51,761 nucleotides of DNA, from positions 1-51,761 of the forward strand of contig JAFDAS010000003.1 of the NCBI GenBank assembly GCA_019313695.1. Direction: 5' to 3'. Source of the DNA: Deltaproteobacteria bacterium (GTDB taxonomy: Bacteria > Desulfobacterota > Syntrophia > Syntrophales > UBA2210). The notes beneath the pieces were generated by a model. It was not told the DNA's origin. It searched no databases and saw nothing but the letters and a program-made list of their open reading frames with translations. Positions 10,568 through 40,544 of this stretch are shown here, in pieces; the first letter of the stretch is position 1; each line of letters begins with the position of its first letter. A program made the translations under genes and the position numbers.

Positions 10568-10596
10568 TTGACAAAGTATTTATACGGGCGTATGAA
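10568..10596 (+). promoter_or_regulatory. Sigma70-type promoter of the AOR operon
   Basis: TTGACA (10568-10573), a 17-bp spacer and TATGAA (10591-10596) form a near-consensus promoter. Transcription would begin near 10603, exactly at the 5' edge of the structured leader. Confidence 0.75.
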
Positions 10597-10606
10597 GAAC
10601 GGGTGG

Positions 10607-10716
10607 TGTAAGCCTTCGAGTGTGACTGCCTAAAGGTCTCAAGTCGATCCCATGGTGCCATGCCGACGGGCTTTCCCGGAAACGGGGAAGCCTCCCGTGA
10701 TTGGAAAGAAGGTTAG
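10607..10716 (+). promoter_or_regulatory. Predicted Moco/Tuco (molybdenum/tungsten cofactor) riboswitch
   Basis: The leader folds as a compact multi-helix RNA. The closing helix pairs AA(g)CCTT (10610-10616) with AAGGTT (10709-10714). A hairpin CTTTCCCG-GAAA-CGGGGAAG has a GNRA tetraloop and is embedded in ACGGG...CCCGT. CCTAAAG...CATGG (10629-10655) resembles an 11-nt GAAA tetraloop receptor. The terminal GCCTCCCGTGATTGGAAAG segment matches my memory of the conserved 3' part of the Moco RNA motif. The first gene downstream codes for part of a tungsten/molybdenum-pterin AOR system, which is the expected target. No alignment could be run, so the class is a strong suggestion rather than proven. 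Confidence 0.7.
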
Positions 10717-11105
10717 CTTTTACATAACTATTTATATGAACTCCTCAGAAGGGGTGATAATACAATGGTTATTTCACTGGCGCCTCGAAAGCATAGTTAT
10801 TCTCCGTATTTTCCTTTCTACACATTTGTATGTCTTATCGCTCCTCGTAAATTCCTGTCTTCAATTCGTTCATTCTTCAAAAAGAGTATGACGGCAGATT
10901 ATTGCCGTAGCGATATACTGAGTCGTTTTAAGATCATGGTGATCAAATTCCCATTTAATCTTTTTTACGTTTTATCGACTTGCCGTTCAGAAAGTGAGTC
11001 CGAAAAAATCAGAAGGGAGGTGTTGGATTAAAACCCTTACAGGAGATCAGGTCACAAACTATAATCACTAAAACCTAACAGAACGATCAGAATGGAGGTT
11101 TCACT
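10717..11105 (+). other. Long leader between riboswitch and first AOR-operon gene
   Basis: About 390 nt without a credible gene. It contains a small perfect hairpin (ACGGCA-GATTAT-TGCCGT, 10891-10908) and ends with ATGGAGG, the ribosome site of the Fe-S gene. I see no T-rich intrinsic terminator close to the riboswitch, so its expression platform is unclear. Confidence 0.4.
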
Positions 11106-11825
11106 ATGAAAAGTGAAAAGAAGAAGTTCCCTGACATGATCCAGAAAGAAACAACTCGCCGCGGGTTTTTGAAAGGAGCCGCTGTTACAGCAGCAGGGGG
11201 GGCGGTTGCAATAGCAACTGTTGGCAGTATCAGGCCAAAAGTTGTCGAAGCGGCAACACCTGTAAAAAAATCGGTTTTGAGGTATCTCTTTGCCGAGAGG
11301 CAAAACTGTACCGGTTGCCGTGCCTGTGAGTATGCCTGCTCGGTTCATCATACAGGAGTTGTCAGACCATCAATCGCCAGGATTCATATATTTAAGTTCC
11401 AGAATGTTGTCGACGTTCCGATTATTTGCTGGCACTGTGATGATGCCCCGTGCATTGAAGCCTGCCCCACCACTCCGGTGGCTTTAAAAAAAGATCCCAA
11501 GACAAACGGTATCATTCTGGACGAAAAGACCTGCCTTGGGGCCAAGTGCATGAAGTGCCAGGAGGCATGTCCGGCTGAGTTTATTCGCGCAAACCCGGAT
11601 ACGGGCAACCCTCTTATGTGTGATCTGTGCGGTGGTGATCCCAAATGTGTGGAAGCCTGCCTTGAACAATCCGGAAATCCCCAGGGTCCATGCCTCTTGG
11701 CCAATAAATTGGGTTTTGGAGTCAACCAGGCGTACAGAAATGTTACCCCCGAGGAGGCAGGAGAAGACCTGATGGGACTCTTGTTCTATCCAAATAAAAC
11801 AGGGGAAAGGAGGTCAGGATCATGA
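11106..11825 (+). CDS. Tat-signal 4Fe-4S ferredoxin subunit of an AOR system
   Basis: A 239-residue electron-transfer protein. Residues 16-23 (Thr-Thr-Arg-Arg-Gly-Phe-Leu-Lys) followed by an Ala/Gly-rich hydrophobic stretch form a near-perfect twin-arginine signal. The mature part carries four Cys groups for up to four [4Fe-4S] clusters: CxxCxxCxxxC near 64-74, CxxCxxxxCxxxCP, CxxxxCxxCxxxCP, and a final CxxCxxxxxCxxxC. This is the HycB/YdhX-like layout that accompanies AOR enzymes such as YdhV of E. coli. ATG 11106 follows GGAGG by 7 bases. It overlaps the AOR gene by ATGA, so both subunits are probably made in equal amounts and form one oxidoreductase. Confidence 0.88.
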   Translation: MKSEKKKFPDMIQKETTRRGFLKGAAVTAAGGAVAIATVGSIRPKVVEAATPVKKSVLRYLFAERQNCTGCRACEYACSVHHTGVVRPSIARIHIFKFQNVVDVPIICWHCDDAPCIEACPTTPVALKKDPKTNGIILDEKTCLGAKCMKCQEACPAEFIRANPDTGNPLMCDLCGGDPKCVEACLEQSGNPQGPCLLANKLGFGVNQAYRNVTPEEAGEDLMGLLFYPNKTGERRSGS

Positions 11826-13639
11826 CAGCACCAAGAGGAGGATATTTCGGAAAGATCCTGGAGATCGACTTATCGAGGCAAAAATATAAAACCCGCGAAA
11901 TCTCCGATGATGAGTGCCGCAAATATATCGGCGGCGCCGGGATGGGTGGTTATTTTTTGGCGTCAGAGTATAAAGCTCACCACGATCCCCTGGCAGAAGA
12001 CAGCTTTATTTTTATTGGTGTTGGCCCTCTTAACGGCACCTATTGCGTGTCCACCAGAACCAGCATTGTGAACATGAACCCCTACACCGGTCTTCTCAGT
12101 CATGCCGAGGTAGGTGCACATCTCGGTAATGAAATCAAGTGGGCCGGATGGGACGGAATCTACATCAAGGGAAGATCGAAAAACCCCGTTTATCTCTATA
12201 TTAAAGACGATAAAGTTCAGTTCAGGGATGCCGGAAAGTTGTGGGGCAAGACGACTGAAGATGCGGATGAATCAATGAGGCAGGAGATCGATGACTCTTA
12301 TGCAAGGACGGCTGTTATCGGTCCGGCAGGGGAAAATGGTGTTCCTTTTGCCGCCGTTATCATTGAACGTTTTCGGGCTGCTGCCAGAACCGGCACCGGC
12401 GCCCTCATGGGTAATAAAAAGTTAAAAGGTATTGCCGTGCGTGGTACGAAAGCCGTTCCCGTAGAGGATAACAAGAAGTTCTACCAGGCAGCTAAAGCCG
12501 CCAAACAACTGGCCGTTGATAAAGAAGGCTGGCAGGGTATTAAAAGATGGGGTACCGCCGGGCTTCTTGAACTGAAGCACTGGGTTTCCGGGTCTCTGAT
12601 TACGAAGAACTTCCAGACCACATGGTATCCTGATATCGAGTATATCGGAGGTGAAGAGGCAAACCGCACTTTCTGGAAAAGACATGTGGCATGCAACCAT
12701 TGTCCGGTTCACTGTCAGAAATACGGTGTCATTCGCGAAGGGAAACATGCCGGCCTCATCGCCGAAGGACCGGAGTATGAGACGGGAGGTCTTTTGGGGA
12801 GCAATCTTGGAATGTCGGATTTCGCTGGAATGATGGCCATGATTGAACTCTGTGATGCCATGGGCATAGACGCCATCTCCACCGGAGGCGTTCTCGCTTT
12901 TACCACCGAATGTATCGACCGTGGAGTCTTGAAACCTGGTGATCTGGATGGCGTTGCTCTCAAATGGGGTGATGCCGATGCATACCTTGAGATGATCCGG
13001 AAGATGGCATATCAGGACGGAAAAGGCGGAAAGCTTCTTGCCAAGGGCGTTCGGAAGATGTCCCAGGAGATTGGCCAGGGTTCAGAGGCATGGGCTGTCC
13101 ATGTGAAGGGAAAAGAGATAGCCGCTCACGATCCCCGGGGTGACAAAGGAAGAGCATACAGCTATGCCCTGGGTACATGTGGTGGTGATCATCACGAAGG
13201 GGGAAGTCCGGCAACGCAGGCAAGATGGGGCATGCTCAATTCTCTCGTCATGTGTTCCTTTGTGGGAGGATATCCGTGGGGTAAGGAAACACCCGGTATA
13301 TTTACGGCTATGCTGAACCCACTCTGTGGATGGAACATGTCGGATGATGAATACTGGACAACGGGAAAGCGTATCATCACGATAGAACGCTGTTTCCAGG
13401 TAAGAGAAGGTATCAACCGCAAGGATGATGTCCTGCCCACGCGGTTCACGACGGAAAAACTGCCCGAGGGACCTAAGAAAGGCGCTATCTTCACAGCGGA
13501 AGATACGAAGAAGATGCAAGAAGCCACATACTCTTACTTCGGCTGGGATGACAATGGCATTCCCACGGACAAGACATTGAAGGCATATGATCTCGAATAC
13601 CTTGTCGATGACGTGAGAGAGGCAAAGAAAGCCCTGTAA
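11822..13639 (+). CDS. Aldehyde:ferredoxin oxidoreductase family catalytic subunit (tungsten/molybdenum bis-pterin)
   Basis: A 605-residue full-length AOR. N-terminal pterin-binding domain: Gly-Gly-Ala-Gly-Met-Gly-Gly near 39, Gly-Asn-Glu-Ile-Lys-Trp-Ala-Gly-Trp-Asp-Gly near 102, and Ala-Ala-Arg-Thr-Gly-Thr-Gly-Ala-Leu-Met-Gly near 190. The [4Fe-4S] ligands are Cys291-x2-Cys294-x3-Cys298, with Cys478 as the probable fourth. Asp345-x-x-Gly-x-Asp350 is the AOR pterin/substrate motif. Family members oxidise aldehydes or reduce carboxylates; close relatives include benzoyl-CoA reductase BamB and YdhV, so the substrate is open. It has no export signal of its own, while its Fe-S partner does. Overlap of 4 bp with the upstream gene; a perfect hairpin follows. 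Confidence 0.93.
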   Translation: MTAPRGGYFGKILEIDLSRQKYKTREISDDECRKYIGGAGMGGYFLASEYKAHHDPLAEDSFIFIGVGPLNGTYCVSTRTSIVNMNPYTGLLSHAEVGAHLGNEIKWAGWDGIYIKGRSKNPVYLYIKDDKVQFRDAGKLWGKTTEDADESMRQEIDDSYARTAVIGPAGENGVPFAAVIIERFRAAARTGTGALMGNKKLKGIAVRGTKAVPVEDNKKFYQAAKAAKQLAVDKEGWQGIKRWGTAGLLELKHWVSGSLITKNFQTTWYPDIEYIGGEEANRTFWKRHVACNHCPVHCQKYGVIREGKHAGLIAEGPEYETGGLLGSNLGMSDFAGMMAMIELCDAMGIDAISTGGVLAFTTECIDRGVLKPGDLDGVALKWGDADAYLEMIRKMAYQDGKGGKLLAKGVRKMSQEIGQGSEAWAVHVKGKEIAAHDPRGDKGRAYSYALGTCGGDHHEGGSPATQARWGMLNSLVMCSFVGGYPWGKETPGIFTAMLNPLCGWNMSDDEYWTTGKRIITIERCFQVREGINRKDDVLPTRFTTEKLPEGPKKGAIFTAEDTKKMQEATYSYFGWDDNGIPTDKTLKAYDLEYLVDDVREAKKAL

Positions 13640-13715: not shown

Positions 13716-14402
13716 ATGAATATATCTCGAAGGGACCTGTTTCAGGTTATCATAAGTGGTGTCGCATCTTTTGTCGTATTTTCCATATTCAAGATAACCG
13801 GCGCAAAGGCCCTGCCTCGTCCTCCGGGTTCACTCATTGAGAGGGAATTCCTGAAGTACTGTACCCGATGCTACAGATGCATCGACGTGTGCCCTGCCGA
13901 TGCACTTAAACCTGCCGGCATTCTTGACGGCATAACAAATTTAGGCACGCCTGTTCTCGACTGGGGAAAGTGCATCCTGTGTATGGAGTGTGTCAGAATA
14001 TGTCCCACCGAAGCAATCAAGAAGGTCCCGAAAGAAGAGATCGATATCGGAAATGCAGTGATCGATCCTGACACATGTCTTTCCTGGCAGAAAAAGAGGA
14101 GATGTAAGAACTGTTACAAGGCCTGTAAGTATGATGCCATCAAACTGGAAAAGAGGCGTTTTCCTGTGGTCATAGAGGATAAATGCAATGGTTGTGGCGC
14201 TTGCGTGAGAAGGTGCCCAACCGATCCTAAGTCTATTATTGTACATTACGACACGGCAAAAAGGTTTGATCCTTCCGAAAATAGATTTGCTTTACGTCTG
14301 GAGAATCGTGTAGGACCTTACAATTTTCCTCCGCCTGATTTCAAAACATGGTTTACGGAACGAATCGAAAAACTGGCAAGACATTATGGAATTATTGACT
14401 AA
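13716..14402 (+). CDS. NapG/MauM-like 4Fe-4S protein with Tat-like N-terminus
   Basis: A 228-residue polyferredoxin. The N-terminus (Ser4-Arg5-Arg6-Asp7-Leu8-Phe9 followed by ~18 hydrophobic residues) is a Tat-like signal or membrane anchor. Four cluster motifs follow: CxxCxxCxxxCP near 49, CxxCxxCxxxCP near 87, a CxxCxxxC variant (Cys-Lys-Asn-Cys-Tyr-Lys-Ala-Cys) near 130, and CxxCxxCxxxCP near 156. NapG-type proteins pass electrons between a NapH-like membrane protein and a periplasmic enzyme; a NapH-like gene is present seven genes downstream. It follows the AOR hairpin and is probably read from the same transcript. Confidence 0.85.
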   Translation: MNISRRDLFQVIISGVASFVVFSIFKITGAKALPRPPGSLIEREFLKYCTRCYRCIDVCPADALKPAGILDGITNLGTPVLDWGKCILCMECVRICPTEAIKKVPKEEIDIGNAVIDPDTCLSWQKKRRCKNCYKACKYDAIKLEKRRFPVVIEDKCNGCGACVRRCPTDPKSIIVHYDTAKRFDPSENRFALRLENRVGPYNFPPPDFKTWFTERIEKLARHYGIID

Positions 14403-14426
14403 AAGGACGAAAGGAATAAGGGATTA

Positions 14427-15686
14427 ATGGCTGGTTTTGAGTACATTTGTAACAGGAAAAAAGATGCCGTCCTTGTAATCGGGGGTGGTGTGGCGGGTAT
14501 TACTGCTTCTCTGGATCTGGCCGATGCGGGTCAGTCCGTTCATCTGGTAGAAAGCGACAGTCATCTGGGTGGTCAGGTTTCGAAGCTGGACAAGCTCTAC
14601 CCTACCGACCACTGTGCTTTCTGTCTCCTCTGGACGGATGTTAAAAAATGTATGGAACATCCTTTAATTACTGTCCATACCCTGTCTCACGTAAAAGAAT
14701 TGAAAAAAGAGAGCGGTAAGTACTCAGCCGTTATTCTGAAGAACCCCCATTACATAGATGAGAAGAAATGCATTTTCTGCGGGCGATGTGTGGAGGAGTG
14801 TCCGGCCGGTGCTATCCACCCTGGCTGGGAACATGCCTGGCCCCCATCTTTCGTAATCGACGAGTCTTCCTGTACAAAATGTGGCAACTGCGCGGAGGTA
14901 TGCCCGTCGGGGGCCATTAATATGGAACTGAGGGAAGAAGAAATAAATCTTGTTGTGAATGATGTCATATGGTCTACCGGGTTTAAGGAGGCTGACCTCA
15001 GGCACCTCAAGGAATACGGAAGCGGTACCCACCCTGATATCATGACCTCCATGGAATTTGAAGACTGGACGGCAGAAGGAGGAATAAATAAAGGTGAGAT
15101 TGTTAAAAGATCGAATCATTCCGTACCTCAAAACATTGCTTTTATTCAGTGCGCCGGAGCGAGGGATCTGAGGATGATCCCCTCCTGCTCGGCCGTCTGC
15201 TGCATGCATGCCCTCAAGCAGGCAGGGTGGACGAAGAGAAGAAATCGAACGATCGATTGTTATATCTTCTATACCGACCTGCGAACGGTAGGACGGGATT
15301 ATTACAGATATTCCCTGAGGGAGTTTGAAGGTACTGAGATCAAACTTATCAGGGGAAGGCCGGGGCTGATTCATCCTCTGCCCGGTGGTGATGGGATCGC
15401 GGTACAATTTGAGAATACCCTGACCCGGAAAAGGGAACTCCGGAAATTTGACATGGTTGTATTGAACGGGAACATTCAGCCTTCCCTGATTCAGTACCGT
15501 CCGGGACAGGATGAAAAGACGGCGATTCCCCCCATGGATAAAGAAGGCTTTTTTAATACAGAATCAGATGAGACATCTACCTTTGCATGCGGTTTTGGTC
15601 TGGAACCGGCAGATGTTGCAGAATCCGTCATTCAGGCATCTGCCGCCGCAATGGGAGTGATGAATAAAGAAACGGATCAAACTTGA
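14427..15686 (+). CDS. HdrA/QmoA-like FAD iron-sulfur protein
   Basis: A 419-residue flavoprotein with an N-terminal Rossmann motif Val-Ile-Gly-Gly-Gly-Val-Ala-Gly-Ile for FAD, a Cys-containing loop (Asp-His-Cys-Ala-Phe-Cys), two CxxCxxCxxxCP [4Fe-4S] motifs near 112 and 151, and the HdrA-type Cys-Ala-Gly-Ala-Arg-Asp...Cys-Cys-Met-x-Ala-Leu-Lys segment near 235-258. Its length is that of QmoA and the shorter HdrA variants; HdrA flavins are the site of electron bifurcation or confurcation in known complexes. AAGGG lies five bases upstream of ATG 14427. The TGA stop is made from the first bases of a palindromic repeat, so the original C-terminus may have been longer. Confidence 0.88.
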   Translation: MAGFEYICNRKKDAVLVIGGGVAGITASLDLADAGQSVHLVESDSHLGGQVSKLDKLYPTDHCAFCLLWTDVKKCMEHPLITVHTLSHVKELKKESGKYSAVILKNPHYIDEKKCIFCGRCVEECPAGAIHPGWEHAWPPSFVIDESSCTKCGNCAEVCPSGAINMELREEEINLVVNDVIWSTGFKEADLRHLKEYGSGTHPDIMTSMEFEDWTAEGGINKGEIVKRSNHSVPQNIAFIQCAGARDLRMIPSCSAVCCMHALKQAGWTKRRNRTIDCYIFYTDLRTVGRDYYRYSLREFEGTEIKLIRGRPGLIHPLPGGDGIAVQFENTLTRKRELRKFDMVVLNGNIQPSLIQYRPGQDEKTAIPPMDKEGFFNTESDETSTFACGFGLEPADVAESVIQASAAAMGVMNKETDQT

Positions 15687-15819
15687 CAGTCTCGTAAAAA
15701 GTCGAAATATACACAATTTTGTCATTCCCGTGAAAACGGGAATCCAGTCTTTTCAAGTGCTTAGCCATATATGGGTTCCCGCCTACGCGGGAATGACAGA
15801 CTTTTCACGAAACCGTCAA
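15683..15819. mobile_element. 137-bp MITE-like palindromic element inside the redox operon
   Basis: The ends TTGACAGTCTCGTAAAAAGTC and its near-complement (GACTTTTCACGAAACCGTCAA) form ~21-bp terminal inverted repeats with about 17 matches. Inside, GTCATTCCCG/CGGGAAT and GTTCCCG/CGGGAATGAC make further hairpins. It has no coding capacity and fills the gap between two HdrA-like genes. A diverged fragment occurs at 5246-5281. Confidence 0.7.
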
Positions 15820-15832
15820 ACTTAAGGTGAAT

Positions 15833-17527
15833 ATGGCGAATATTACTGTTTTTCTGTGCAGATGTTTCGGAGAGATCGATAATGCAATCGATTTTGATCT
15901 TCTCAGGAAGGAATTATCAAAAGATACCTCTGTTTCTTCCGTATCGATTGTTGATTCCCTCTGTCTCGAAGCGGATATAGAAAAGGCTGCCTCCCAAATA
16001 AAAGAAACCAAAGCTGACAGGGTATTAATCGCTGCCTGTCCTACTCTATCGAGGGGCAATCTTCCCGTCGATGGTCTCATCAAAGAGGGGATAGAACGGC
16101 ACAAAATCGACCTGGTAGACATAAGGGAAGGATGCGCATGGATTCATGGCAATGACCCGGAAGGCGCCGTAAAAAAGGCGAAAGATCTCATCAATATGGG
16201 CCTCGCTGCCCTTCAACATAAAGAAGCATCCAAAGATATGCGTGTAAGCGTTCATCCTGATGCCCTGATAATAGGTGCAGGTCCAGCGGGTCTCGCCGCC
16301 GCCACATCACTGGCAAAAACGGGCTTTAAGGTTAACATCCTCGAAAGGGCAAGCGCCCCCGGCGGAATGCTGAGATTGATTTCACAATTGTACCCGACCG
16401 GTGAAGATGCAGCGGATAAACTGAACCCCTACATTGACGAGGTCGAAAACAATCACCTCATCACATTTTATCCCCAGTCAAAAATTTCCTCCATTGAGGG
16501 ATGCATCGGCAATTTCACCGTTCAATTTTCATCTCAGGGAGAAGATAATTCCATTCAATCGGGGATTATCATCATTGCAACGGGTGCAAAGATATTTTTC
16601 CCGACAGGTCTCTATCGTTACGGTGAAATCAGGAATGTAATCACGCAGATGGAGATTGAAAGACAATTTCTTAAAGGATCGTTTGATGCGAAAAAACCCG
16701 TCTTTATTCAGTGTGCCGGCGCGAGAGATAAAGAAAGACCGTATTGTTCGACCATCTGCTGTCCAGCCAGTCTTAAAAATGCCATGAGACTGGCAGGGGA
16801 AAACCCTGGGTCAGAGGTGTTCATTCTCCACCGGGGAATTATGACGCCCGGGAATGTCCTGGAAAAATATTACAGGGATGCCCTCTCAATGGGAATACAG
16901 TTTATTTGTTTTGAAGAAGAGAAGCCTCCCATGATCATGGGTAATGATCGTGTTGAACATGTAGAAGTGTATGACGCGGTGAACGGTATTACACGAAAGA
17001 TAGAAACAGATCTGGTGGTTTTGAGCACACCCCTTGTCCCGAATGACGATAGTGTCCGGCTGGCTCAGATGTTAGGTATTGAAGTTGACCGTTACGGATT
17101 TTTTTCGGAGAGCTATCCAATGCACCCCCTGGAGACGAAGATGGACGGCGTCTTCATCTGCGGCTCCGCGAGATGGCCCGTTGCTTCAGATCAGGCGATA
17201 TTACAGGGAAGGGCAGCCGCCATGAAGGCCGTTTCGTATTTAAGGCAGAGAGAAATTGCCGCATCGACACTCAGCCGGGTTCCCGGTCCGAAATCAGGCC
17301 ACGCCAGGGTTGTTCCCGACTCCTGTACCGGATGTGGAAACTGTGTTGCCGCCTGTCCCTTCGAGGCCTGTCATCTTGAAAAACTGGAGGACAGACATAT
17401 CAGCAAAGTCGATATGATGAGATGCAAGGCCTGCGGAAACTGCGTGTCGGTCTGTCCCAACGGGAGTATGCAGATACCGGAACATAATTATCGCATGGTT
17501 GGAGAAATGATAAAAAGGGCATTTTAG
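15833..17527 (+). CDS. HdrA/QmoB-like FAD iron-sulfur protein
   Basis: A 564-residue HdrA-family protein. The first ~130 residues are an HdrA N-terminal domain with Cys-Arg-Cys; FAD-binding Ile-Gly-Ala-Gly-Pro-Ala-Gly-Leu-Ala is near 145, followed by Ala-Pro-Gly-Gly-Met. The conserved Cys-Ala-Gly-Ala-Arg-Asp...Tyr-Cys-Ser-Thr-Ile-Cys-Cys segment is near 300, and two C-terminal ferredoxin motifs CxxCxxCxxxC lie near 500 and 535. ATG 15833 has AAGG five bases upstream, immediately right of the palindromic element; a GTG at 15827 is also open. Together with the next, MvhD-like gene it looks like QmoB split in two (QmoB is an HdrA-MvhD fusion). Likely the flavin hub between the AOR and formate dehydrogenase. 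Confidence 0.88.
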   Translation: MANITVFLCRCFGEIDNAIDFDLLRKELSKDTSVSSVSIVDSLCLEADIEKAASQIKETKADRVLIAACPTLSRGNLPVDGLIKEGIERHKIDLVDIREGCAWIHGNDPEGAVKKAKDLINMGLAALQHKEASKDMRVSVHPDALIIGAGPAGLAAATSLAKTGFKVNILERASAPGGMLRLISQLYPTGEDAADKLNPYIDEVENNHLITFYPQSKISSIEGCIGNFTVQFSSQGEDNSIQSGIIIIATGAKIFFPTGLYRYGEIRNVITQMEIERQFLKGSFDAKKPVFIQCAGARDKERPYCSTICCPASLKNAMRLAGENPGSEVFILHRGIMTPGNVLEKYYRDALSMGIQFICFEEEKPPMIMGNDRVEHVEVYDAVNGITRKIETDLVVLSTPLVPNDDSVRLAQMLGIEVDRYGFFSESYPMHPLETKMDGVFICGSARWPVASDQAILQGRAAAMKAVSYLRQREIAASTLSRVPGPKSGHARVVPDSCTGCGNCVAACPFEACHLEKLEDRHISKVDMMRCKACGNCVSVCPNGSMQIPEHNYRMVGEMIKRAF

Positions 17528-17562
17528 AAAGCAGGACACAAATAGTAATGCGAGAGGTTAAA

Positions 17563-17988
17563 ATGAACCAGCCCAGAATCCTGATTTTTGCCTGCAAGTG
17601 GTGTGGTCTTATCGGAGCCGATGCCGCCGGAAAGAAGAGAGCTTCTCTCCCTGCCCGGTTTCGTGTCATTCCGGTGGAATGCGCGGCCCTTGTTGAACCC
17701 GATGCAATTTTAAGGGCGCTGGCCGGAGGGATCGACGGAGTAGCCGTCCTGGGATGTCACTCAGGAGGCTGCCGATACAATAACGCGAACCATGCCTCCA
17801 TAAAACGCTTTGAGCTTCTTAAAGATCTCCTGGACACAACAGGGATAGGGGGAGAGAGGTTGCTGCTGAGTTTTGGAACTGCTCACGAATACCACCAGTT
17901 CGAAGAGATAATCGAAAATTTCTTTAACGAATTAGCCGCATTGCCTCCCCTGGACCCATGGTTGTCGCCGTTTGGAGTGGTAAGCTGA
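17563..17988 (+). CDS. MvhD-like [2Fe-2S] protein
   Basis: A 141-residue member of the F420-non-reducing hydrogenase delta-subunit family. It has the Cys-x2-Cys pair (Phe-Ala-Cys-Lys-Trp-Cys), a central Val-Glu-Cys, and the Gly-Cys-His-Ser-Gly-Gly-Cys segment; the usual Gly-Asp-Cys-His-Tyr is here Gly-Gly-Cys-Arg-Tyr. In MvhADG-HdrABC and related complexes this subunit carries electrons from the oxidising enzyme to HdrA. Start ATG 17563 is chosen over 17548 because GAGAGG precedes it at good spacing. It lies between the second HdrA-like gene and an Fe-S gene, so it probably docks the formate dehydrogenase module to HdrA. Confidence 0.88.
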   Translation: MNQPRILIFACKWCGLIGADAAGKKRASLPARFRVIPVECAALVEPDAILRALAGGIDGVAVLGCHSGGCRYNNANHASIKRFELLKDLLDTTGIGGERLLLSFGTAHEYHQFEEIIENFFNELAALPPLDPWLSPFGVVS

Positions 17989-17990
17989 TT

Positions 17991-18842
17991 ATGCTTGAGA
18001 AAACGAAAAACATAGCAAAGCAGATTCTTGAAGAGAAAAAGGCCAATGGTGTTCTCGGCCTTATGAAGAATCAGCGGGATATCGTCCAGCCCCATGTTTT
18101 CAAAAGGCTCCCGGAATTAGATGCCCTCGTTCTTGAACCGAAATGGTTGCTGGCGAAGCTTTCCATGAGCATTTTACGTTCTTCTCCCGAAGGCTACAGA
18201 CTGGCTGTCCTCTGTCGGGGATGCGACGAGAGGGCACTGATTGAACTGACAAAAAGAAACCAGATTGAAAAGGAAAACCTCCTTACGATTGGAATTGCCT
18301 GCAGTCAGGAACAGGCGGCCATATGCCTTTGCGACAGGCCTTATCCGGCAAAAGTTGACGCGGGCGAGATCGCTTCAGGGGTAGATCCCTTTCAGGATGA
18401 AAGAGTCCGGGAATTTTTGATTGGCAATGACAAAAAAAGGATGGAGAAATGGGCGAATGTCCTGAAGCGGTGCATCAAGTGTTACGGCTGCAGAAACTCC
18501 TGTCCCATCTGCGTTTGTGAACCCTGCAAGCTGGAGGATGATGTCTGGGTGCAAAGAGGAGACGTGCCGGCAGAGATGGCAACCTTTCATCTGATACGTG
18601 CCTTTCACCTGTCGGATACCTGTGTGGCCTGCGGAGCCTGTCAGGAAGCCTGTCCCGTCAATATCCCCCTGCTCTATCTGCAGCTTTCGATGCGCAAAAC
18701 GCTCAAGGAAAAATACGGATACGAAGCGGGGCTTGATCCCGAGAAGAAGTCACCAATCCTTTCGGATTTCTTAAAAGAGCCCGAGACGGGCAGGGAATAT
18801 CCCGAATGGATAAACTCGCTGAGGGAAAAAGATGGGCACTGA
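17991..18842 (+). CDS. FrhB/FdhB-like protein with two C-terminal 4Fe-4S clusters
   Basis: A 283-residue protein. The first ~140 residues have Cys-Arg-Gly-Cys-Asp-Glu-Arg and Ile-Ala-Cys segments, recalling the FrhB / F420-dependent formate dehydrogenase beta family. The last third carries two ferredoxin motifs: CxxCxxCxxxCPxC near 160, with additional cysteines (Cys-Val-Cys-Glu-Pro-Cys), and CxxCxxCxxxCP near 210. ATG 17991, two bases after the upstream stop, is preferred to 17958, which would overlap by 31 bp. It overlaps the formate dehydrogenase gene by 11 bp, so it is likely the electron-transfer subunit of that enzyme. Whether it binds a flavin or F420 cannot be judged here. Confidence 0.8.
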   Translation: MLEKTKNIAKQILEEKKANGVLGLMKNQRDIVQPHVFKRLPELDALVLEPKWLLAKLSMSILRSSPEGYRLAVLCRGCDERALIELTKRNQIEKENLLTIGIACSQEQAAICLCDRPYPAKVDAGEIASGVDPFQDERVREFLIGNDKKRMEKWANVLKRCIKCYGCRNSCPICVCEPCKLEDDVWVQRGDVPAEMATFHLIRAFHLSDTCVACGACQEACPVNIPLLYLQLSMRKTLKEKYGYEAGLDPEKKSPILSDFLKEPETGREYPEWINSLREKDGH

Positions 18843-20880
18843 ATTCATCAAGACCATTTGTCCCTATTGCGGCACCGGCTGCGGCCTTATTATAAAGGTC
18901 AAGGATGGCGTTGCCGTTGCGACCTATCCCGACAGGGAACACCCTGTTTCCAGGGGAAGTCTGTGCATAAAGGGGTGGTCTGCCCACGAATTTATCCACC
19001 ATCCCGACCGGCTGACCTCACCCCTTTTGAGAAAGGGTGATACGTTTCAGAAAATTCCGTGGGATGAAGCCATACCGATGGCAGCCGATAAACTGCGTGA
19101 AACTGCCGCAAAATACGGCGGCGACGCCGTTGGCGGCCTTTCCTCCGCCAAGTGTACCAATGAAGAAAATTATCTCTTCCAGAAACTGATGCGAATGGTC
19201 TTCAAGACAAACAATGTAGATCACTGCGCGCGGCTTTGTCATGCCCCGACCACTGTTGCCATGGCACAGACCCTTGGCAGCGGAGCAATGACGAATTCCA
19301 TTTCCGATCTGGCCGGGGCTGAGTGTATTTTTGTTATCGGCTCCAATGCGGCAGAGAGCCATCCGATCATCATGGGTGAAATCTATAAGGCTATCGACAG
19401 GGGGGCAACACTTATTGTTGTAGATCTCCGTAAAACGGCAGTCGTCCAAAACGCGAAAATTCATCTTCCCATCAATCCGGGGACGGACATACCGCTGCTG
19501 TGTGGCATGATGAGGCACATTATTGACGAAGGGTTATACGACGAGGAATTTGTAAAGGCGCGAATGGAAGGTTTTGAAGAATTAAATGAATTTATCTCTG
19601 CATGGACTGTTGAGAAAGCTTCCGGGGAATGCGGCATTGATCCCGGGCTTATTAAGCTGGTAGCGGAAACTTATGCAAAAGCGAAAGAGTCGGCCATAGT
19701 TTACTGCATGGGCATCACCCAGCACGCCTGCGGAACGGCCAATGTCCTCGCCATCTGCGATCTCGCCATGCTGTGCGGCCATGTGGGGAAAGAATATTCC
19801 GGCATATATCCCCTCCGGGGGCAGAACAATGTCCAGGGCGCCTGCGATATGGGAGCCCTGCCCAACGTCTATCCTGGCTATCAGAGCGTCAGCGATCCCG
19901 CGATCAGAGATAAGTTTCAAAAAGCCTGGGGGGGTGAACTTTCCGACAAGCCGGGGCTGACCGTGACAGAGATTATCGGTTCCGCAGGGAAGGACATACG
20001 CGCAGCCTATATCATGGCGGAAAATCCGGCATTGAGTGATCCAGATACCAGTCATGTGCTGGAATCCCTGAAGGCCCTCGACTTTCTCATCGTTCACGAT
20101 ATCTTCCTTACCGAGACGGCACGATTTGCAAATCTTGTGTTGCCGGGCTCCTGTTTTGCCGAAAAATCCGGAACATTCACCAATACGGAACGGCGATTTC
20201 AGCTCTTACGAAAGGCAGTCGATCCGCCGGGGAATGCAAAGGAAGACTTTGCGATCTTATGCCTCCTTGGAAGCGCCCTTGGACTTGATTTTTCCTATAG
20301 CCATCCCGGAGAAGTCATGGAGGAGATTGCGTCACTGGTCCCGGCCTACGGAGGCATCCGCTTTGAGAGATTAGAACGGGGAGGCCTGCAGTGGCCCTGC
20401 CCTGATTCAGATCATCCCGGCACACAGTATCTTCACAAAGATCGATTTACACGGGGCAGAGGACTTTTCGTCACTCCCGAATATACTCCACCGAAGGAAC
20501 TGCCCGATGCCGATTATCCCTATTATCTCAGTACGGGAAGGATGTTTGCTCACTACCATACCGGTACGATGACGCGCCGGTCACCCTTCCTCAACAGAGA
20601 GGCGGAAGAGGCCTATGCCGAGATCAACCCGGAAGACGCCATACACCTGAACGTAAAAGATGGAGAAAAAATTAAGATAACAACCCGCCGGGGAAGCATT
20701 ATAACAACTGCCCGAATAACGAAACGTGTTTCAAGGGGATGTATCTTCGCGCCCTTTCACTTTGCGGAGGCGCGGGCCAATATGCTGACCAATCCGGTTC
20801 TTGATCCCCTTTCCAGGATTCCTGAATTCAAGGTATGTGCAGCGGATGTAAGGAAGGAGTCACAGGATGACGAACGGTAA
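18832..20880 (+). CDS. fdhA: Formate dehydrogenase alpha subunit (Cys type, Mo/W bis-MGD)
   Basis: A 682-residue molybdopterin oxidoreductase of the formate dehydrogenase type. Cys10-Pro-Tyr-Cys13-Gly-Thr-Gly-Cys17 with Cys45 binds the N-terminal [4Fe-4S]; the metal ligand is Cys136 in Ala-Arg-Leu-Cys136-His137, where selenium forms have Sec. The C-terminal ~110 residues are the MGD-binding beta-barrel (Tyr-Leu-Ser-Thr-Gly-Arg, Ala-Glu-Ile-Asn-Pro-Glu-Asp-Ala). There is no Tat signal, which indicates a cytoplasmic enzyme. It would interconvert formate and CO2. Overlaps of 11 and 14 bp with the flanking genes place it firmly inside the complex. A Cys enzyme is notable because the window carries a Sec tRNA. 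Confidence 0.93.
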   Translation: MGTEFIKTICPYCGTGCGLIIKVKDGVAVATYPDREHPVSRGSLCIKGWSAHEFIHHPDRLTSPLLRKGDTFQKIPWDEAIPMAADKLRETAAKYGGDAVGGLSSAKCTNEENYLFQKLMRMVFKTNNVDHCARLCHAPTTVAMAQTLGSGAMTNSISDLAGAECIFVIGSNAAESHPIIMGEIYKAIDRGATLIVVDLRKTAVVQNAKIHLPINPGTDIPLLCGMMRHIIDEGLYDEEFVKARMEGFEELNEFISAWTVEKASGECGIDPGLIKLVAETYAKAKESAIVYCMGITQHACGTANVLAICDLAMLCGHVGKEYSGIYPLRGQNNVQGACDMGALPNVYPGYQSVSDPAIRDKFQKAWGGELSDKPGLTVTEIIGSAGKDIRAAYIMAENPALSDPDTSHVLESLKALDFLIVHDIFLTETARFANLVLPGSCFAEKSGTFTNTERRFQLLRKAVDPPGNAKEDFAILCLLGSALGLDFSYSHPGEVMEEIASLVPAYGGIRFERLERGGLQWPCPDSDHPGTQYLHKDRFTRGRGLFVTPEYTPPKELPDADYPYYLSTGRMFAHYHTGTMTRRSPFLNREAEEAYAEINPEDAIHLNVKDGEKIKITTRRGSIITTARITKRVSRGCIFAPFHFAEARANMLTNPVLDPLSRIPEFKVCAADVRKESQDDER

Positions 20881-21337
20881 AGACAGGCTTGCCGAAGCGA
20901 GGAGATCTTCCGGTGCCTCCGGTTGTGTGGAATGTGGCAGGTGCGTTGCGGTATGTCCCATGGCTGAGATGTATACAAATTTTTCCATCGAAATGTCACC
21001 ACGGGGGGTGATTAAAAAGACCTTGACCGGGGATGACGTCATCATGGATAAAAATATCTGGTACTGCACCGAATGTAATGCCGGCACCGACATGTGTCCA
21101 CAAGGGGTGAGCTGTCGGGATCTGATTCGAGCTCTTAGGGAAATAGCCATTGAAGAGAAAGTGGTCGAAGATATAAAATACTGTACCCGCTGCGGTAAAC
21201 CGTTTCTATCAATTCCCGTAAAAAACTTTGTCTTTGACAGGCTGGAAGAAGAGCCTCCGAATGTTTTGAACCTCCTCGGTCTCTGTCCCGTATGCAGGAG
21301 GGAAATATATATGTTGCGTAATGCGCAGGTACTATAA
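20867..21337 (+). CDS. HdrC-like iron-sulfur protein with altered second cluster and C-terminal Cys knuckle
   Basis: A 156-residue HdrC-family protein. The first cluster motif is intact (Cys20, Cys23, Cys26, Cys30-Pro). The second reads Cys67-x2-Cys70-x2-Gly73-x3-Cys77-Pro: the third cysteine is replaced by glycine, confirmed as GGC in the DNA. The C-terminus adds CxxC (near 106) and CxxC (near 144), resembling a zinc or rubredoxin-like knuckle absent from ordinary HdrC. HdrC normally relays electrons between HdrA and HdrB or a membrane partner; no HdrB occurs in this operon, and the next gene is a membrane Fe-S protein. It overlaps fdhA by 14 bp and the next gene by one base. Confidence 0.82.
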   Translation: MTNGKDRLAEARRSSGASGCVECGRCVAVCPMAEMYTNFSIEMSPRGVIKKTLTGDDVIMDKNIWYCTECNAGTDMCPQGVSCRDLIRALREIAIEEKVVEDIKYCTRCGKPFLSIPVKNFVFDRLEEEPPNVLNLLGLCPVCRREIYMLRNAQVL

Positions 21338-22644
21338 TGCAGGAAGAAACAACCGAACAGAATAATATTATTACCCTCGAGGATCTCAGGCCACGTCGCG
21401 AAGAGAAAAAAACCTTCTCCGGCTACTTTATGCCGCGACGTCATTCCGGGATTCTCTTTGATCCGGAAAAATGTACCGGTTGCGGCACCTGTGAGATGGT
21501 CTGTTCCGTGAGGAATGTCTCTAAAATAGCGCCGGCGTCCGCCAGTATGGAAGTGCTCAGAGATGAGGAAGATAACAGGAATTTTGCGATCCTCTGCCAG
21601 CATTGCCGCAAACCCCTCTGCATCGAAGCCTGCCCCACCAGGGCGATAGAAAAGGGTGAGGACGGGATTGTCCGTATCAACAAACTGTTCTGTGTCGGAT
21701 GCGGTCTCTGTACCATGGCATGCCCGGAGGCCGCGCCCCTTAAAGATCCAGTAACGGAAGAGATAAACAAATGCGATCTCTGTGAAGGCGACCCGCTGTG
21801 CGTTAAATATTGCCCGTCGGGCGCGCTCACCTTCACAAAGGGGAAAAAGATCAGATGGATAAAAGGCCTGCGATGGACCGTCCAAACTGTTTCATTTCTC
21901 CTCCTTGTCGTTATCCTGGTTGGAACATTTTGTTCCCTGAAAGCGGGCGCGCTCAGTCTGTCCTGTCCGGCAGGAATACTTCAGAATATCGCGTCATCAG
22001 GAACTATCGTGCTCGTCTGGATTCTGTCGGCTTTCCTGATACTTGGGCTGACTATCCTTGCAGGGAGGTTTTTCTGCGGATGGATCTGTCCCTTCGGCTT
22101 TTTGCTCGATCTTGTCGATAAAATTACGCCAAAGAAGATCGGGTGGCCGTCATTTCTCAAGAGCAGGATGGTAAAGTACGGTATCCTTGCCGGAGCCGTG
22201 GGAGGAAGTTGCGCTTTCGGGTTCCAGGCATTCTGCCCCGTATGTCCCATCGGTTCTATTTGCCGTTCCTATGGAGCTACAGGAACCCTTAATGGCGCTA
22301 ATCTTGGGATAATGGGGGCACTGGCAGGCCTCGAAATAACAGAAAGGCGGGTCTGGTGCAGGTATTTCTGCCCCGTGGGCGCCCTTCTGGCGCTTTTTGC
22401 AAAGATTGGTCTGATAAAAATTGTCATCGGCGCGAATCAGTGCAAAAAATTTTCCTGTATTCAATGCGCGGAGGTATGCCCCATGGGGATCATCGATGCG
22501 GATAAATTGAGAGAAGGCATATCGCCGGTAATACGGATGACCGAATGCATTACATGTATGAGATGCATTGATCGATGCCCTTACGGTGCGGCAAAGATAA
22601 GATTCAGGTGGCAGAAGGCGGTACCGGGGAATATTGAATTATGA
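21337..22644 (+). CDS. NapH-like membrane Fe-S protein fused to an HycB-like polyferredoxin
   Basis: A 435-residue fusion. Residues ~40-165 form a DMSO-reductase-B/HycB-like ferredoxin with four cluster motifs (CxxCxxxxxCS, CxxCxxxxCxxxCP, CxxCxxCxxxCP, CxxCxxxxxCxxxCP). Residues ~180-365 are a NapH/CcoG-like membrane domain with about four helices and the paired Cys-Gly-Trp-Ile-Cys-Pro-Phe-Gly and Cys-Arg-Tyr-Phe-Cys-Pro-Val-Gly loops. Two further [4Fe-4S] motifs close the protein. NapH proteins oxidise menaquinol, so this subunit probably ties the cytoplasmic Hdr/Fdh part to the quinone pool or to the Tat-targeted Fe-S proteins. It ends by ATGA overlap with the AOR paralogue. Confidence 0.88.
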   Translation: MQEETTEQNNIITLEDLRPRREEKKTFSGYFMPRRHSGILFDPEKCTGCGTCEMVCSVRNVSKIAPASASMEVLRDEEDNRNFAILCQHCRKPLCIEACPTRAIEKGEDGIVRINKLFCVGCGLCTMACPEAAPLKDPVTEEINKCDLCEGDPLCVKYCPSGALTFTKGKKIRWIKGLRWTVQTVSFLLLVVILVGTFCSLKAGALSLSCPAGILQNIASSGTIVLVWILSAFLILGLTILAGRFFCGWICPFGFLLDLVDKITPKKIGWPSFLKSRMVKYGILAGAVGGSCAFGFQAFCPVCPIGSICRSYGATGTLNGANLGIMGALAGLEITERRVWCRYFCPVGALLALFAKIGLIKIVIGANQCKKFSCIQCAEVCPMGIIDADKLREGISPVIRMTECITCMRCIDRCPYGAAKIRFRWQKAVPGNIEL

Positions 22645-23960
22645 AGTTATTCAATAAGTTCTACAATATGAAGGTGGGAATAGTCGATCTTTCTGAATCA
22701 TCTGCAGAGGTGGCGCCTCTGGACGCCCGGCTTGTTGCGGAAAAGATCGGTGGCGCGGCAGTAAATGCAGATCTTTTTAAGCGATATGAAGATGGTGACC
22801 CTCTGATCCTCGGGGTCGGCCCTCTGACAGGCAGCTTTGCGCCCGCCTCATGCCTTTCTGTCGCGACATTTTTAGCGCCGCGTTTCGGAAATCTCTGCCA
22901 CGTACCCCTTATGCTGAGGACAGGCCCGGAGATGAAGTTCTCCGGTATCGATTTTCTGGTGATCAAAGGATGCGCTTCTTCACCTAAGATGTTGCACATC
23001 GACAAAGGAACAATGAATATTGTTTCAGCGGAGCATCTCGTCGGGCTTGAGATCCCTGAGGCTGTTCAGGCACTGAAAAAGGACCCCCCCCTCTCCCGAT
23101 CGATTATCCTGACAGGCCCCGCCGCTGATCACGGGGTTTCCTGTGCTTCCGTTTCAACAGGAATGAGAGGCAGTCTGGATAAAGCGGGGATGGCTTCCCG
23201 GATGGCCTCAAAAAATCTCAAGGGAATCATCTTCAATGGAACCGGTGGTCTTCCCTTCGCCGAAGACAATCTTAACCATAAAGAGACAATAGAAAGGGAC
23301 CTTTTTGCAGATAAAGGGCATGGAAATGAAGGGTTTCTCTCCGTGCTGGAAAAGATCGGAATCGAAGACAATCTGAAAAAAATCATCAAGAAAACAAAAT
23401 GGCGCAATATGGCATGTTACCACTGTCCTTCTCCATGCATAAGTTCCGTCGAATTTACATGGCACGATCCACGGAAGAATTCCAGGACTAAAGACAATAT
23501 ATTTCTTTCAGACCATATGGGATTTTCGGCAATGGTGAAGAAAGCAGGAAAATATGTACTTCCCCTGTTAAAAAGCTGCCTCCGTTTCGGTCTCGACCCG
23601 GTTGCTGCAGCGAAGAGATTGCCGGAGGATGGAGGATTACCTGAATTGCTGAGCGCTATAGAAGAGATGTCCGTTACACCGGAAGGACCGGAAATCGAAA
23701 GAGAATCTCACCCGATCGGAGAGATTCCCGTGGAAACACATAACCTGTTTGGTGGCGGGATACCACCGGTATTGCCCGATGAATTGTGGGGGAAACGGGT
23801 TTGCCTTTCCATGATTCTGGGTGTATGTCCAATATTTTTACTCCTTTTTCCACAGACCTCCGGAATCGATCTTCTTAAATTCCTTGCAAAAGATGAACAT
23901 GATCTGGAGCTTTTGGAAGAAGTGTTAGCCTCATCGATTCAATCCATCCTTGAAGATTGA
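22641..23960 (+). CDS. Short divergent AOR paralogue, probably non-catalytic
   Basis: A 439-residue AOR-family protein, about two thirds of normal length. Domain 1 is aligned throughout with the full AOR at 11822 (Gly-Gly-Ala-Ala, Gly-Pro-Leu-Thr-Gly, Leu-Lys-Gly-Ile), and the Cys-x2-Cys-x3-Cys cluster motif (Cys-Tyr-His-Cys-Pro-Ser-Pro-Cys, near 257) is kept. The Arg-Thr-Gly-Thr-Gly loop is replaced, the Asp-x2-Gly-x-Asp motif is not visible, and most of the C-terminal domain is missing; the tail is hydrophobic. It may act as a structural or electron-transfer partner of the catalytic AOR, as inactive paralogues do in other complexes. It closes the operon with a 4-bp overlap. Confidence 0.82.
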   Translation: MKLFNKFYNMKVGIVDLSESSAEVAPLDARLVAEKIGGAAVNADLFKRYEDGDPLILGVGPLTGSFAPASCLSVATFLAPRFGNLCHVPLMLRTGPEMKFSGIDFLVIKGCASSPKMLHIDKGTMNIVSAEHLVGLEIPEAVQALKKDPPLSRSIILTGPAADHGVSCASVSTGMRGSLDKAGMASRMASKNLKGIIFNGTGGLPFAEDNLNHKETIERDLFADKGHGNEGFLSVLEKIGIEDNLKKIIKKTKWRNMACYHCPSPCISSVEFTWHDPRKNSRTKDNIFLSDHMGFSAMVKKAGKYVLPLLKSCLRFGLDPVAAAKRLPEDGGLPELLSAIEEMSVTPEGPEIERESHPIGEIPVETHNLFGGGIPPVLPDELWGKRVCLSMILGVCPIFLLLFPQTSGIDLLKFLAKDEHDLELLEEVLASSIQSILED

Positions 23961-24034: not shown

Positions 24035-24964
24035 TCATCTTAAATACTCGAAGAATTTCTTCCAGATCAGATGAGTCAGCTTATGCGGAATCTTTCCCCT
24101 TTTGGAACCGAAAATAAGCCATCCCAATTTGCGATGATATCTTATAAAGGTACTGAACCTTGAGGCCGAGACTTTCCCCTTTCTCAGATACCAGCAGCGA
24201 GGCGCCTCCATGGCGGGCCATTTTCCCGATAAAACCTTCAAGGCTTCCATGGCGGCAAGGCTGGCAGCCATCCATTCAACGGGGCAGATGAGGGCGAGTG
24301 GACGATTCCCGGTAAAATATTCGAAGAACCAGTCAACGCGCCAGTCCCCTGAGGTAACGTAATTATACTGGGCGCAGCGATACTCTTTCGTGCGTATTAC
24401 GCTGACGAGGTCGTGATAATCAAGTTTGGGCACTCCAAACATGTCTTCCAGGGTGGGACTATTCCTCCTGAATACGCTGACCCATCCTGTTGTTCCTGAC
24501 GGCAGGCACAGCACAGCGGGGACTCCATGCTTTCTGGCTGTACGAAAAAGCAAGACACTGTAGGCAAGATCATCCACTGCCGGTATTACAATATCTCCGG
24601 AAAGAATTATACGGTCCATCTCTTCTCCCGCGGGGAGATGATTGTATGCGGTGATCTGGACATCAGGATTGATGGAAAGAACAGTGTCACGGATGACTTC
24701 AACTTTATTTTCCCCTATGGTATCACTGAAGCAGCCGATCTGACGATTCATGTCGGATGGAACATAGGTATCCTTGCCGGCCACAATCAGTTTCGTAACA
24801 CCGCAGCGGACCAGGAGAGTAGAGAGGAGTTCACCTGTGCCTGAATCTCCTATGATCACCACCCGGGAATCCCTTATTCGTTTCTGCTCATCAGCGGTAA
24901 AGACCCCGAGATTCCGGATGAACAGGTCATTATAGTTCATATCCATCATAGATTTATTTTTCAT
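24035..24964 (-). CDS. ThiF/MoeB-like E1 paralogue with altered glycine loop
   Basis: A 309-residue E1-like adenylyltransferase homologue. Rossmann loop Gly-Asp-Ser-Gly-Thr-Gly replaces the usual Gly-x-Gly-Gly-x-Gly. The ATP-site motif Pro-Ser-Asp-Met-Asn-Arg-Gln, a Gly-Glu-Asn-Lys and the Val-Asp-Asp aspartate are kept, as is a cysteine in Leu-Ile-Cys-Pro near the position used by MoeB/ThiF. The CxxC zinc pairs of MoeB are absent, and the basic aromatic C-terminus is longer than in MoeB. It overlaps its upstream paralogue by 11 bp. E1 enzymes adenylate the C-terminal Gly of ThiS/MoaD-like proteins; no such gene is adjacent. It could be the regulatory half of a heterodimer. Confidence 0.85.
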   Translation of the reverse strand: MKNKSMMDMNYNDLFIRNLGVFTADEQKRIRDSRVVIIGDSGTGELLSTLLVRCGVTKLIVAGKDTYVPSDMNRQIGCFSDTIGENKVEVIRDTVLSINPDVQITAYNHLPAGEEMDRIILSGDIVIPAVDDLAYSVLLFRTARKHGVPAVLCLPSGTTGWVSVFRRNSPTLEDMFGVPKLDYHDLVSVIRTKEYRCAQYNYVTSGDWRVDWFFEYFTGNRPLALICPVEWMAASLAAMEALKVLSGKWPAMEAPRCWYLRKGKVSASRFSTFIRYHRKLGWLIFGSKRGKIPHKLTHLIWKKFFEYLR

Positions 24965-25925
24965 ATGAATGATCGTGTGGGTGGTCCGTGGATTCCCTGT
25001 TTTTCATCCATCTATAATACAGGACCCACCATATGGATTGCAGCTTTTCCTGAAAAGGTCCAAACCGCGTTTGAAAAACCTTCCACATAAGCCTCCTCTG
25101 CCATACCAGAAGGGTTTGCAGGCAAAAACCATTGACGCGGTTGATCCTGATCCTGTTTCGCATAATACTCCAGTACCGTGGAGAAGCCACGGGCTTCCAC
25201 TTTCCACTCAGGCACTTCAATATTTCAAACGCACCCAGAGCAGAGCTCAACCACACGGTCGGACATATCTGGGTCGGAGGCAAATTCTCTTCTATAAAGT
25301 CACGATAATAGTCGATTCTCCAATCTGCCAGAGGAACATAAAAGTAAGTCCCGAATTTGTACTTTCGCATCTCAAGAATATCCCGGAGTTCTTCGTACGT
25401 TGAAAGTTTTGGAACACCCTCAATATCTTCCGGCAGCGGACTGTCGGGATTGATGATGCTGACATTCGCCCAGGTTCCTGATGGAACTACCATGAGTGAA
25501 GGTTTTCCTGATTTCTTCGCATCGCGAAAAACGAAAAGACTGAAGGCAAAATCGTCTGCAGCAGGGAAAACTAAATCAACCCCCGACATGAGTTTCGCAA
25601 TTTCAGCGTGTGTCAGCAGGGTTTCATGCACTGTAACTCTCGCCTCCGGATTGATCCTCAGGATATCATTCCTGACGACATGGGCTTTGTTCCGACCGAT
25701 TGTGTTTTCAAAGCAGCAGATTTGACGGTTCATGTTTGACGGACTATATGCGTCAAAGTCTACTAATATAAATTGACCGACTCCGGAACGGGCAAGCATG
25801 ATGGCAACTGTTGCTCCGATACCGCCACACCCGACAATCAGAATTTTTGACTTTCGTATCTTTTCCTGCTCTTCGTCGGAAAAGATGCCATAATTCCTTT
25901 GGAAAAGGTTTTTATATGTTGTCAT
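24954..25925 (-). CDS. ThiF/MoeB-like E1 adenylyltransferase
   Basis: A 323-residue E1-like protein with an intact nucleotide loop Gly-Cys-Gly-Gly-Ile-Gly near 33, Asp-Phe-Asp-Ala-Tyr-Ser-Pro-Ser-Asn-Met-Asn-Arg-Gln, Gly-Arg-Asn-Lys and Ala-Asp-Asp, the complete adenylation signature, and Gln-Ile-Cys-Pro-Thr near the catalytic-cysteine position. It lacks the zinc CxxC pairs. The last ~75 residues are basic and Trp-rich (Ile-Trp-Trp-Val-Leu-Tyr-Tyr-Arg-Trp) and may bind membrane. It is the middle gene of an operon with a membrane protein (16 bp upstream) and its own diverged paralogue. The setting next to a tungsten/molybdenum enzyme cluster suggests cofactor or protein-modification work; substrate unknown. 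Confidence 0.87.
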   Translation of the reverse strand: MTTYKNLFQRNYGIFSDEEQEKIRKSKILIVGCGGIGATVAIMLARSGVGQFILVDFDAYSPSNMNRQICCFENTIGRNKAHVVRNDILRINPEARVTVHETLLTHAEIAKLMSGVDLVFPAADDFAFSLFVFRDAKKSGKPSLMVVPSGTWANVSIINPDSPLPEDIEGVPKLSTYEELRDILEMRKYKFGTYFYVPLADWRIDYYRDFIEENLPPTQICPTVWLSSALGAFEILKCLSGKWKPVASPRYWSIMRNRIRINRVNGFCLQTLLVWQRRLMWKVFQTRFGPFQEKLQSIWWVLYYRWMKNRESTDHPHDHSYEK

Positions 25926-27186: not shown

Positions 27187-27388
27187 ATAAATCTTCTCCT
27201 GAATATTGCGTATTGCGGACGTCAGTCTATAACAACAACTGTTGCAAAATCAAGTCCTCAGCCTGCCCCGATCGGATATTATTCCTGGCCATGCGGGGGG
27301 CAGGGGAAGAGGGGAAGAGGGGGGCAAATTTCTCTTGACAAACAGGCATATTGGTGACAGAAGGGACGCGCTGAAAGTACAGGAAATG

Positions 27389-27471
27389 TCGAAAAAGGCA
27401 CAACCGCCGAAAGGCGGTGTCGCAAAGCCCCAAGTCTAATGCCGGAAGGTTATGATCGTCGGGCTGCCGGA
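27389..27471 (+). promoter_or_regulatory. GEMM (cyclic di-GMP-I / cGAMP class) riboswitch
   Basis: Conserved GEMM features occur in order: AAAAAGGCACAACC, the P1b hairpin CCGCC-GAAA-GGCGG with its GNRA tetraloop, the core GTCGCAAAGCCCC, AGTCTAA as tetraloop receptor side, and the closing ATGATCGTCGGGCTGCCGG. The 3' strand GGCTGCCGG (27462-27470) is perfectly complementary to CCGGCAGCC (27493-27501) in the terminator that follows. Whether c-di-GMP or 3',3'-cGAMP is bound cannot be decided by eye. It controls the histidine-kinase operon. Confidence 0.87.
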
Positions 27472-27484
27472 TATATTAACTGAT

Positions 27485-40403: not shown

Positions 40404-40446
40404 CACCCGGTATGTAAAGAGATAAAAACAGGCTTTAAATTCGCGC

Positions 40447-40544
40447 GGAAGTGCCAAGGTCACTGGTGGGCCTCCCGGACTTCAAATCCGGTGTGGGGCG
40501 CTAGAACCGTCCCAGGTGGGTTCGATTCCCATGCACTTCCGCCA
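40447..40544 (+). tRNA. selC: tRNA-Sec (anticodon TCA)
   Basis: A 98-nt tRNA including encoded CCA. The 8-bp acceptor GGAAGTGC/GCACTTCC, a long D arm, the anticodon stem CCGGA-CT-TCA-AA-TCCGG with anticodon TCA (reads UGA), a long variable arm (GGGGCGCTAGAACCGTCCC) and the TTCGATT T-loop are the selenocysteine tRNA layout. The host therefore makes selenoproteins, although none with in-frame TGA was identified in this window. Confidence 0.95.

Follow-up and report, generated by a model that had tools for sequence, protein, structure and literature searches.

The window, which is the whole 51,761-nucleotide stretch analysed here, contains an operon for an aldehyde:ferredoxin oxidoreductase (AOR) preceded by a long leader, and the locus raises the question of what this leader senses and how it might pass the signal on to the genes behind it. 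A scan of the whole 51.8-kb window against all of Rfam gave three matches, among them the Moco RNA family, RF01055, at 10602–10727 on the forward strand, to which all features of the leader and the operon belong. The match has 61.5 bits, far over the gathering cut-off of 36, an E-value of 1.9e-12 and the full length of the model (1–135 of 135). A Moco/Tuco riboswitch had been predicted at 10607–10716 in a first-pass annotation made from the letters alone, and the covariance model bears out both the prediction and its location. We regard the aptamer as almost certainly a riboswitch of the Moco/Tuco (RF01055) family. The aptamer itself is a further member of a class already known, and the new part is the expression platform, a long leader with a hairpin-locked open reading frame (ORF).

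In the Rfam alignment the aptamer retains P1, P2, P4 and P5, and P3 is deleted. The closing helix, first read as AA(g)CCTT/AAGGTT, is P1, in which AA(g)CCTTC (10610–10617, G10612 bulged) pairs with GAAGGTT (10708–10714). P2 (10620–10663) carries the tetraloop-receptor bulge, CCTAAAGG...CCATGG, and the stem CTTTCCCG-GAAA-CGGGGAAG corresponds to P4 (10669–10692), with arms at 10669–10678 and 10683–10692 and the expected GAAA tetraloop (GGAAAC, 10678–10683). The nested helix ACGGG/CCCGT, also proposed from the letters, lies outside the family consensus, in which CC (10694–10695) pairs with GG (10703–10704) to form P5 (10694–10704); it is an alternative to that P5. Covariation among homologous leaders, studied in 31 aptamers of the same taxonomic class, is strong for P1, P2, P4 and P5. 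The consensus structure has 89.5% of cells paired and two-sided changes at 18 of its 29 pairs; compensatory two-sided cells number 127, compared with 42.9 in shuffles, and the covariation score is 0.456, compared with at most 0.151 for slid structures.

Directly 5' of the aptamer lies a promoter-like sequence (10568–10596), consisting of TTGACA (10568–10573), a 17-nucleotide spacer and TATGAA (10591–10596). These elements stand as the first-pass annotation gave them, and the leaders of three other genomes (G001, G005 and G009) have TTGACA in the equivalent position, but "consensus" is too strong a word for the -10 element, which is weak and was not called by a consensus scanner because the scanner demands a final T. 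A further promoter-like match inside the leader (11036–11065) may be a source of operon transcripts, in a scanned region where about 1.4 such matches are expected by chance.

The first gene of the operon (11106–11825) encodes, by Pfam, a 4Fe-4S ferredoxin with a TAT signal, and the next (11822–13639) encodes the AOR, a member of a tungsten enzyme family with the Pfam domains AFOR_N and AFOR_C. The genes at 13716–22644 encode a polyferredoxin, two HdrA-like proteins, MvhD, an HdrB-like/4Fe-4S protein, a formate dehydrogenase alpha subunit of the Cys form, an HdrC-like protein and an NapH-like protein. The last gene of the run (22641–23960) encodes a 439-amino-acid protein with the AOR N-terminal domain and, in the domain search, no AFOR_C match, possibly a non-catalytic paralogue of AOR. 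RF01055 RNAs are located upstream of genes for molybdenum or tungsten cofactors or enzymes, and here the AOR operon follows the aptamer; in G001 and G048 the aptamer and the fdx-AOR-Hdr-MvhD-Fdh synteny are conserved together. Control of the whole operon by the riboswitch is plausible on these grounds.

The genes under the leader are less constant than the leader. The ferredoxin and AOR of the window are 75% and 82% identical to those of G048, which belongs to another family (f15), compared with 69% and 68% for the genus mate G001, whereas the genes after AOR are 76–86% identical to those of G001 and 59–70% to those of G048. In G005 the conserved leader is followed by another AOR. Judged from pairwise identities alone, the ferredoxin and AOR genes appear to have been replaced together in situ under a constant riboswitch leader. 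In this mosaic (window 11036–13639) the exchange boundary falls close to the leader's 3' end, and the spacer there, before the first operon gene, is also shorter (74 nt, as against 206–263 nt in other leaders).

Leaders of this AOR-linked kind are mostly about 400–590 nt long, and the first long gene begins 244–586 nt past the aptamer. The first-pass annotation, right about the riboswitch, overlooked what lies between: a leader ORF, which in the window has 88 codons (10765–11031) and a Shine-Dalgarno sequence, AGAAGGGG (10747–10754), 10 nt 5' of its ATG at 10765, and a hairpin over its start. An ORF of 64–104 codons is present in seven of seven leaders from two families (the window, G005, G001, G002, G048, G068 and G076; G009, with the 244-nt spacing, is outside this set). 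It starts with ATGGTT or GTGGTT (Met-Val), 50–56 nt past the aptamer wherever a contig holds both. By dinucleotide shuffling of five leaders, the chance that the frame stays open from that start is 0.005–0.036 per leader. The ORF stop is followed by the next gene after 74–263 nt, the lowest value being that of the window and the other leaders having 206–263 nt.

Folding of six leaders predicts that the Shine-Dalgarno sequence and start codon of this ORF are buried in a hairpin (10724–10772 in the window). When the segment is folded alone, the hairpin forms in all six leaders that have a readable 5' arm (the window, G005, G001, G048, G068 and G076), with energies of -11.1 to -13.3 kcal/mol and z values of -1.0 to -2.7, and 88.5% of its cells are paired, as against 29.5–60.3% in slid versions. 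Two-sided compensatory changes number zero in the six leaders, so that the support for the hairpin is conservation and not covariation; its arms are conserved while the body of the ORF varies. When longer stretches of G048 and G068 are folded under constraints, the hairpin faces competition from other structures. The leader taken as a whole is unconvincing as a conserved structured RNA (RNAalifold z -1.7, with 9 of 200 shuffles equally good). A start shut by a hairpin suggests that the operon is turned on and off in one of the less common ways, through the leader ORF.

A further feature of the window leader is a C-rich, G-poor stretch at 10801–10878 (22 C and 7 G), which resembles a Rho-loading site and is equalled by 1.3% of gene segments. 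The leader ORFs of the genus contain such a 78-nt stretch with C/G ratios of 2.8–6.0, and 0–1.3% of the 330-nt segments taken from genes of the window show a C>G bubble as marked as theirs; for the leaders of family f15 the share of control segments is 16–28%, an ordinary value. The genome encodes Rho. With 74–263 nt between the ORF stop and the next gene, Rho seems a better candidate than direct translational coupling, which is unlikely over such a distance. The mechanism that we propose would run as follows. The P3-less, tungsten-cofactor riboswitch would open the mRNA of the AOR-Hdr-Fdh operon, and ligand binding would stabilise P1 beside the start hairpin and in this way govern the entry of ribosomes into the leader ORF; where ribosomes are lacking, the naked C-rich, G-poor leader would let Rho end transcription ahead of the AOR genes. 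Drawn from sequence features and from analogy with known leaders, this mechanism as a whole, in which the cofactor gates translation of the leader ORF and hence Rho-dependent readthrough, has in our judgement somewhat less than an even chance of being correct. More tentative still is its extended form, in which the riboswitch would gate a fast-evolving ORF whose translation blocks Rho, so bypassing direct control of the enzyme genes, and the promoter, riboswitch and leader would persist as one unit while AOR genes are swapped beneath it.

The direction of the switch was sought in the folds. Mutually exclusive folds of P1 and the start were not seen in equilibrium folding, where the start region was paired to an equal extent whether P1 was enforced or forbidden; equilibrium folding thus yields no direction and no visible thermodynamic switch. 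A search across the leaders for a conserved anti-sequester pairing found none. One such model, in which the GGTTA of the P1 3' strand (10711–10715) and the GGTTA at the start codon compete for TAACT (10725–10729), is attractive within the genus, and it was rejected because family f15 lacks it and because the pairing is too weak to compete with the start hairpin. In that family (loci L083 and L112) early codons of the leader ORF, such as ACACTTC in G068, are able to base-pair with the 3' strand of P1, and in these folding models a possible anti-P1 pairing would enclose the start hairpin.

We lean slightly towards an OFF switch, acting when cofactor is abundant, since the Moco RNA of Escherichia coli moaA is an OFF switch whose leader has Rho-dependent 3' ends. 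Its drawback is counter-intuitive physiology, for an enzyme that uses the cofactor would be repressed when the cofactor is plentiful. An ON switch, in which the bound aptamer would aid translation of the leader ORF or readthrough and the AOR operon would be made when tungsten cofactor is available, makes physiological sense for enzymes of this kind, and when P1 is unformed its 5' strand, CCTTC, would be free to pair with the GAAGG of the leader Shine-Dalgarno sequence. The moaA precedent (PMC2408646) points the other way, however, as does G009, in which P1 excludes a candidate antiterminator pairing and so argues for OFF; we consider an ON switch possible but not probable.

A plainer reading is that this is an ordinary Tuco riboswitch with a transcriptional or P1-only platform, the leader ORF and hairpin being incidental or simply part of a long leader. 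It has in its favour that the aptamer is solid, that P1 and the start hairpin are not clearly coupled in the folds, and that in G009 a segment able to form a weak hairpin ahead of a U-run may pair with the 3' strand of P1 instead, an arrangement of the terminator type. That hairpin reaches only -2.3 kcal/mol and was rejected as a terminator, however, as was the best candidate in the window leader (-10.0 kcal/mol, poor U tract; none has a good one), and no strong intrinsic terminator was found in the AOR-linked leaders. Nor does this reading account well for a frame that stays open from a common start in seven leaders of two families, with low chance probabilities, or for hairpin arms kept where the ORF body is not, and we think it rather unlikely.

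The nature of the ligand depends on the subtype of the aptamer. Regulski et al. (2008, PMC2408646) suggested, from correlation alone, that the Moco RNAs without P3, 58 of 176 in their survey, respond to the tungsten cofactor. P3 is missing in 31 of 31 aligned relatives of the window aptamer. RF01055 is present in 41 of 155 genomes of the class, mostly as a CTCTCCGAT subtype located 10–66 nt 5' of genes for TAT-signal selenocysteine (Sec) formate dehydrogenases with an in-frame UGA within HQARI-U-HS. A second subtype, CTTCGAGT..CCTAAAGG..CCCATGG, includes the window copy, and its CTTCGAGT..CCTAAAGG pattern precedes AOR genes in G000, G001, G005, G009, G048, G068 and G076; the contig of G002 starts within the same AOR-linked leader. 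A sample of about 380 genomes from outside the class yielded no instance of this pattern. Of 154 genomes, 26 have an AOR orthologue, and the aptamer is not a constant part of AOR operons, the other operons scanned having no RF01055 up to about 3 kb upstream. Weak matches to the leader DNA were noted in G067, G076, G087 and G094, and the two inspected (G076 and G094) are unrelated sequence. The window's own genome holds a second P3-less Moco RNA (contig C202, 33244–33363, locus L001; 75.4 bits), which is of the Sec formate dehydrogenase kind and lies close 5' of a UGA-containing formate dehydrogenase gene. The lineage is thereby a natural test of tungsten-cofactor sensing, with two P3-less copies in one genome, before a Sec formate dehydrogenase and before an AOR operon, on different platforms.

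The suggestion of a Tuco variant lacking one stem fits what else the genome encodes. It has the tungstate-binding protein WtpA (368.3 bits, cut-off 242.75), and in a profile search of the genome no protein scored above the cut-off for ModA; in the PDB comparison the window AOR matches the tungsten-containing structures 1aor (E 1.6e-100), 8c0z and 6x6u. The absence of P3, the AOR genes downstream and the WtpA transporter all agree with a tungsten-cofactor ligand, an assignment that is correlative. That the ligand is instead the molybdenum cofactor, in spite of the absent P3, might be argued from this correlative basis and from the finding that P3 deletion in the E. coli RNA merely abolished regulation (PMC2408646), but it sits poorly with a genome that has WtpA and no ModA above cut-off and with an enzyme of the tungsten family, and we consider it improbable.

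Within the genus the leader DNA is 75–88% conserved. The first 192 nt of the leader ORF contain no indels among genus mates, and differences are spread evenly over the three codon positions (12, 16 and 10; 5, 9 and 11; 13, 11 and 11), without codon periodicity. Translation of the ORF may therefore matter more than the sequence of its peptide, and the flat pattern speaks against an ordinary conserved protein. The amino acids are barely conserved beyond the genus. A small functional protein, such as an AOR-associated subunit encoded by a directly riboswitch-controlled first gene of the operon, would suit the Met-Val start, the frame open in seven genomes, the ORF's own Shine-Dalgarno sequence and a weak C-terminal likeness between families (..[IV][MI]..K[FL]P), but is quite unlikely in view of those even differences, the variable length (64–104 codons), a C-terminus whose reading frame differs from one genus mate to another and the lack of any Pfam match.

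The window aptamer shares with the published P3-less Tuco/Wco form of RF01055 (PMC2408646) the core, P1, P2, P4 and P5, the GAAA tetraloop with its receptor, the absence of P3 and the tungsten-enzyme context. The published platforms of Moco RNAs place the ribosome site in P1 or use an intrinsic terminator (PMC2408646), in contrast to the long leader with a hairpin-locked ORF described here. The E. coli moaA leader, likewise with a Moco-family aptamer, shows 3' ends that depend on Rho, and expression of a moaA fusion increases more than 2-fold in the rhoR66S strain (PMC7815308). Unlike the window aptamer, that of moaA includes P3 and regulates genes for molybdopterin synthesis, and the passages on it mention no leader ORF (PMC7815308). 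A riboswitch followed by an ORF is found in Mycobacterium tuberculosis ppe2, where the aptamer is a different one, for cobalamin; translation of the uORF is essential for the downstream gene, and a tight stop/start overlap was favoured over Rho as the explanation (PMC11260477). Should the locked leader ORF prove to be the target, the Moco class would join the few riboswitches that act through translation of a uORF.

Several other loci in the window deserve mention. Two adjacent ThiF/MoeB-like E1 proteins are encoded on the reverse strand at 24035–25925, convergent with the AOR operon. A c-di-GMP-I-GGC riboswitch (RF03167, 60.4 bits, cut-off 59) at 27388–27472 lies just 5' of genes for a sensor histidine kinase and a response regulator/PAS kinase. 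At 39156–40540, moeA is followed directly by a selenocysteine tRNA gene (RF01852, 77.2 bits), an adjacency that ties molybdenum/tungsten cofactor insertion to the selenocysteine machinery.
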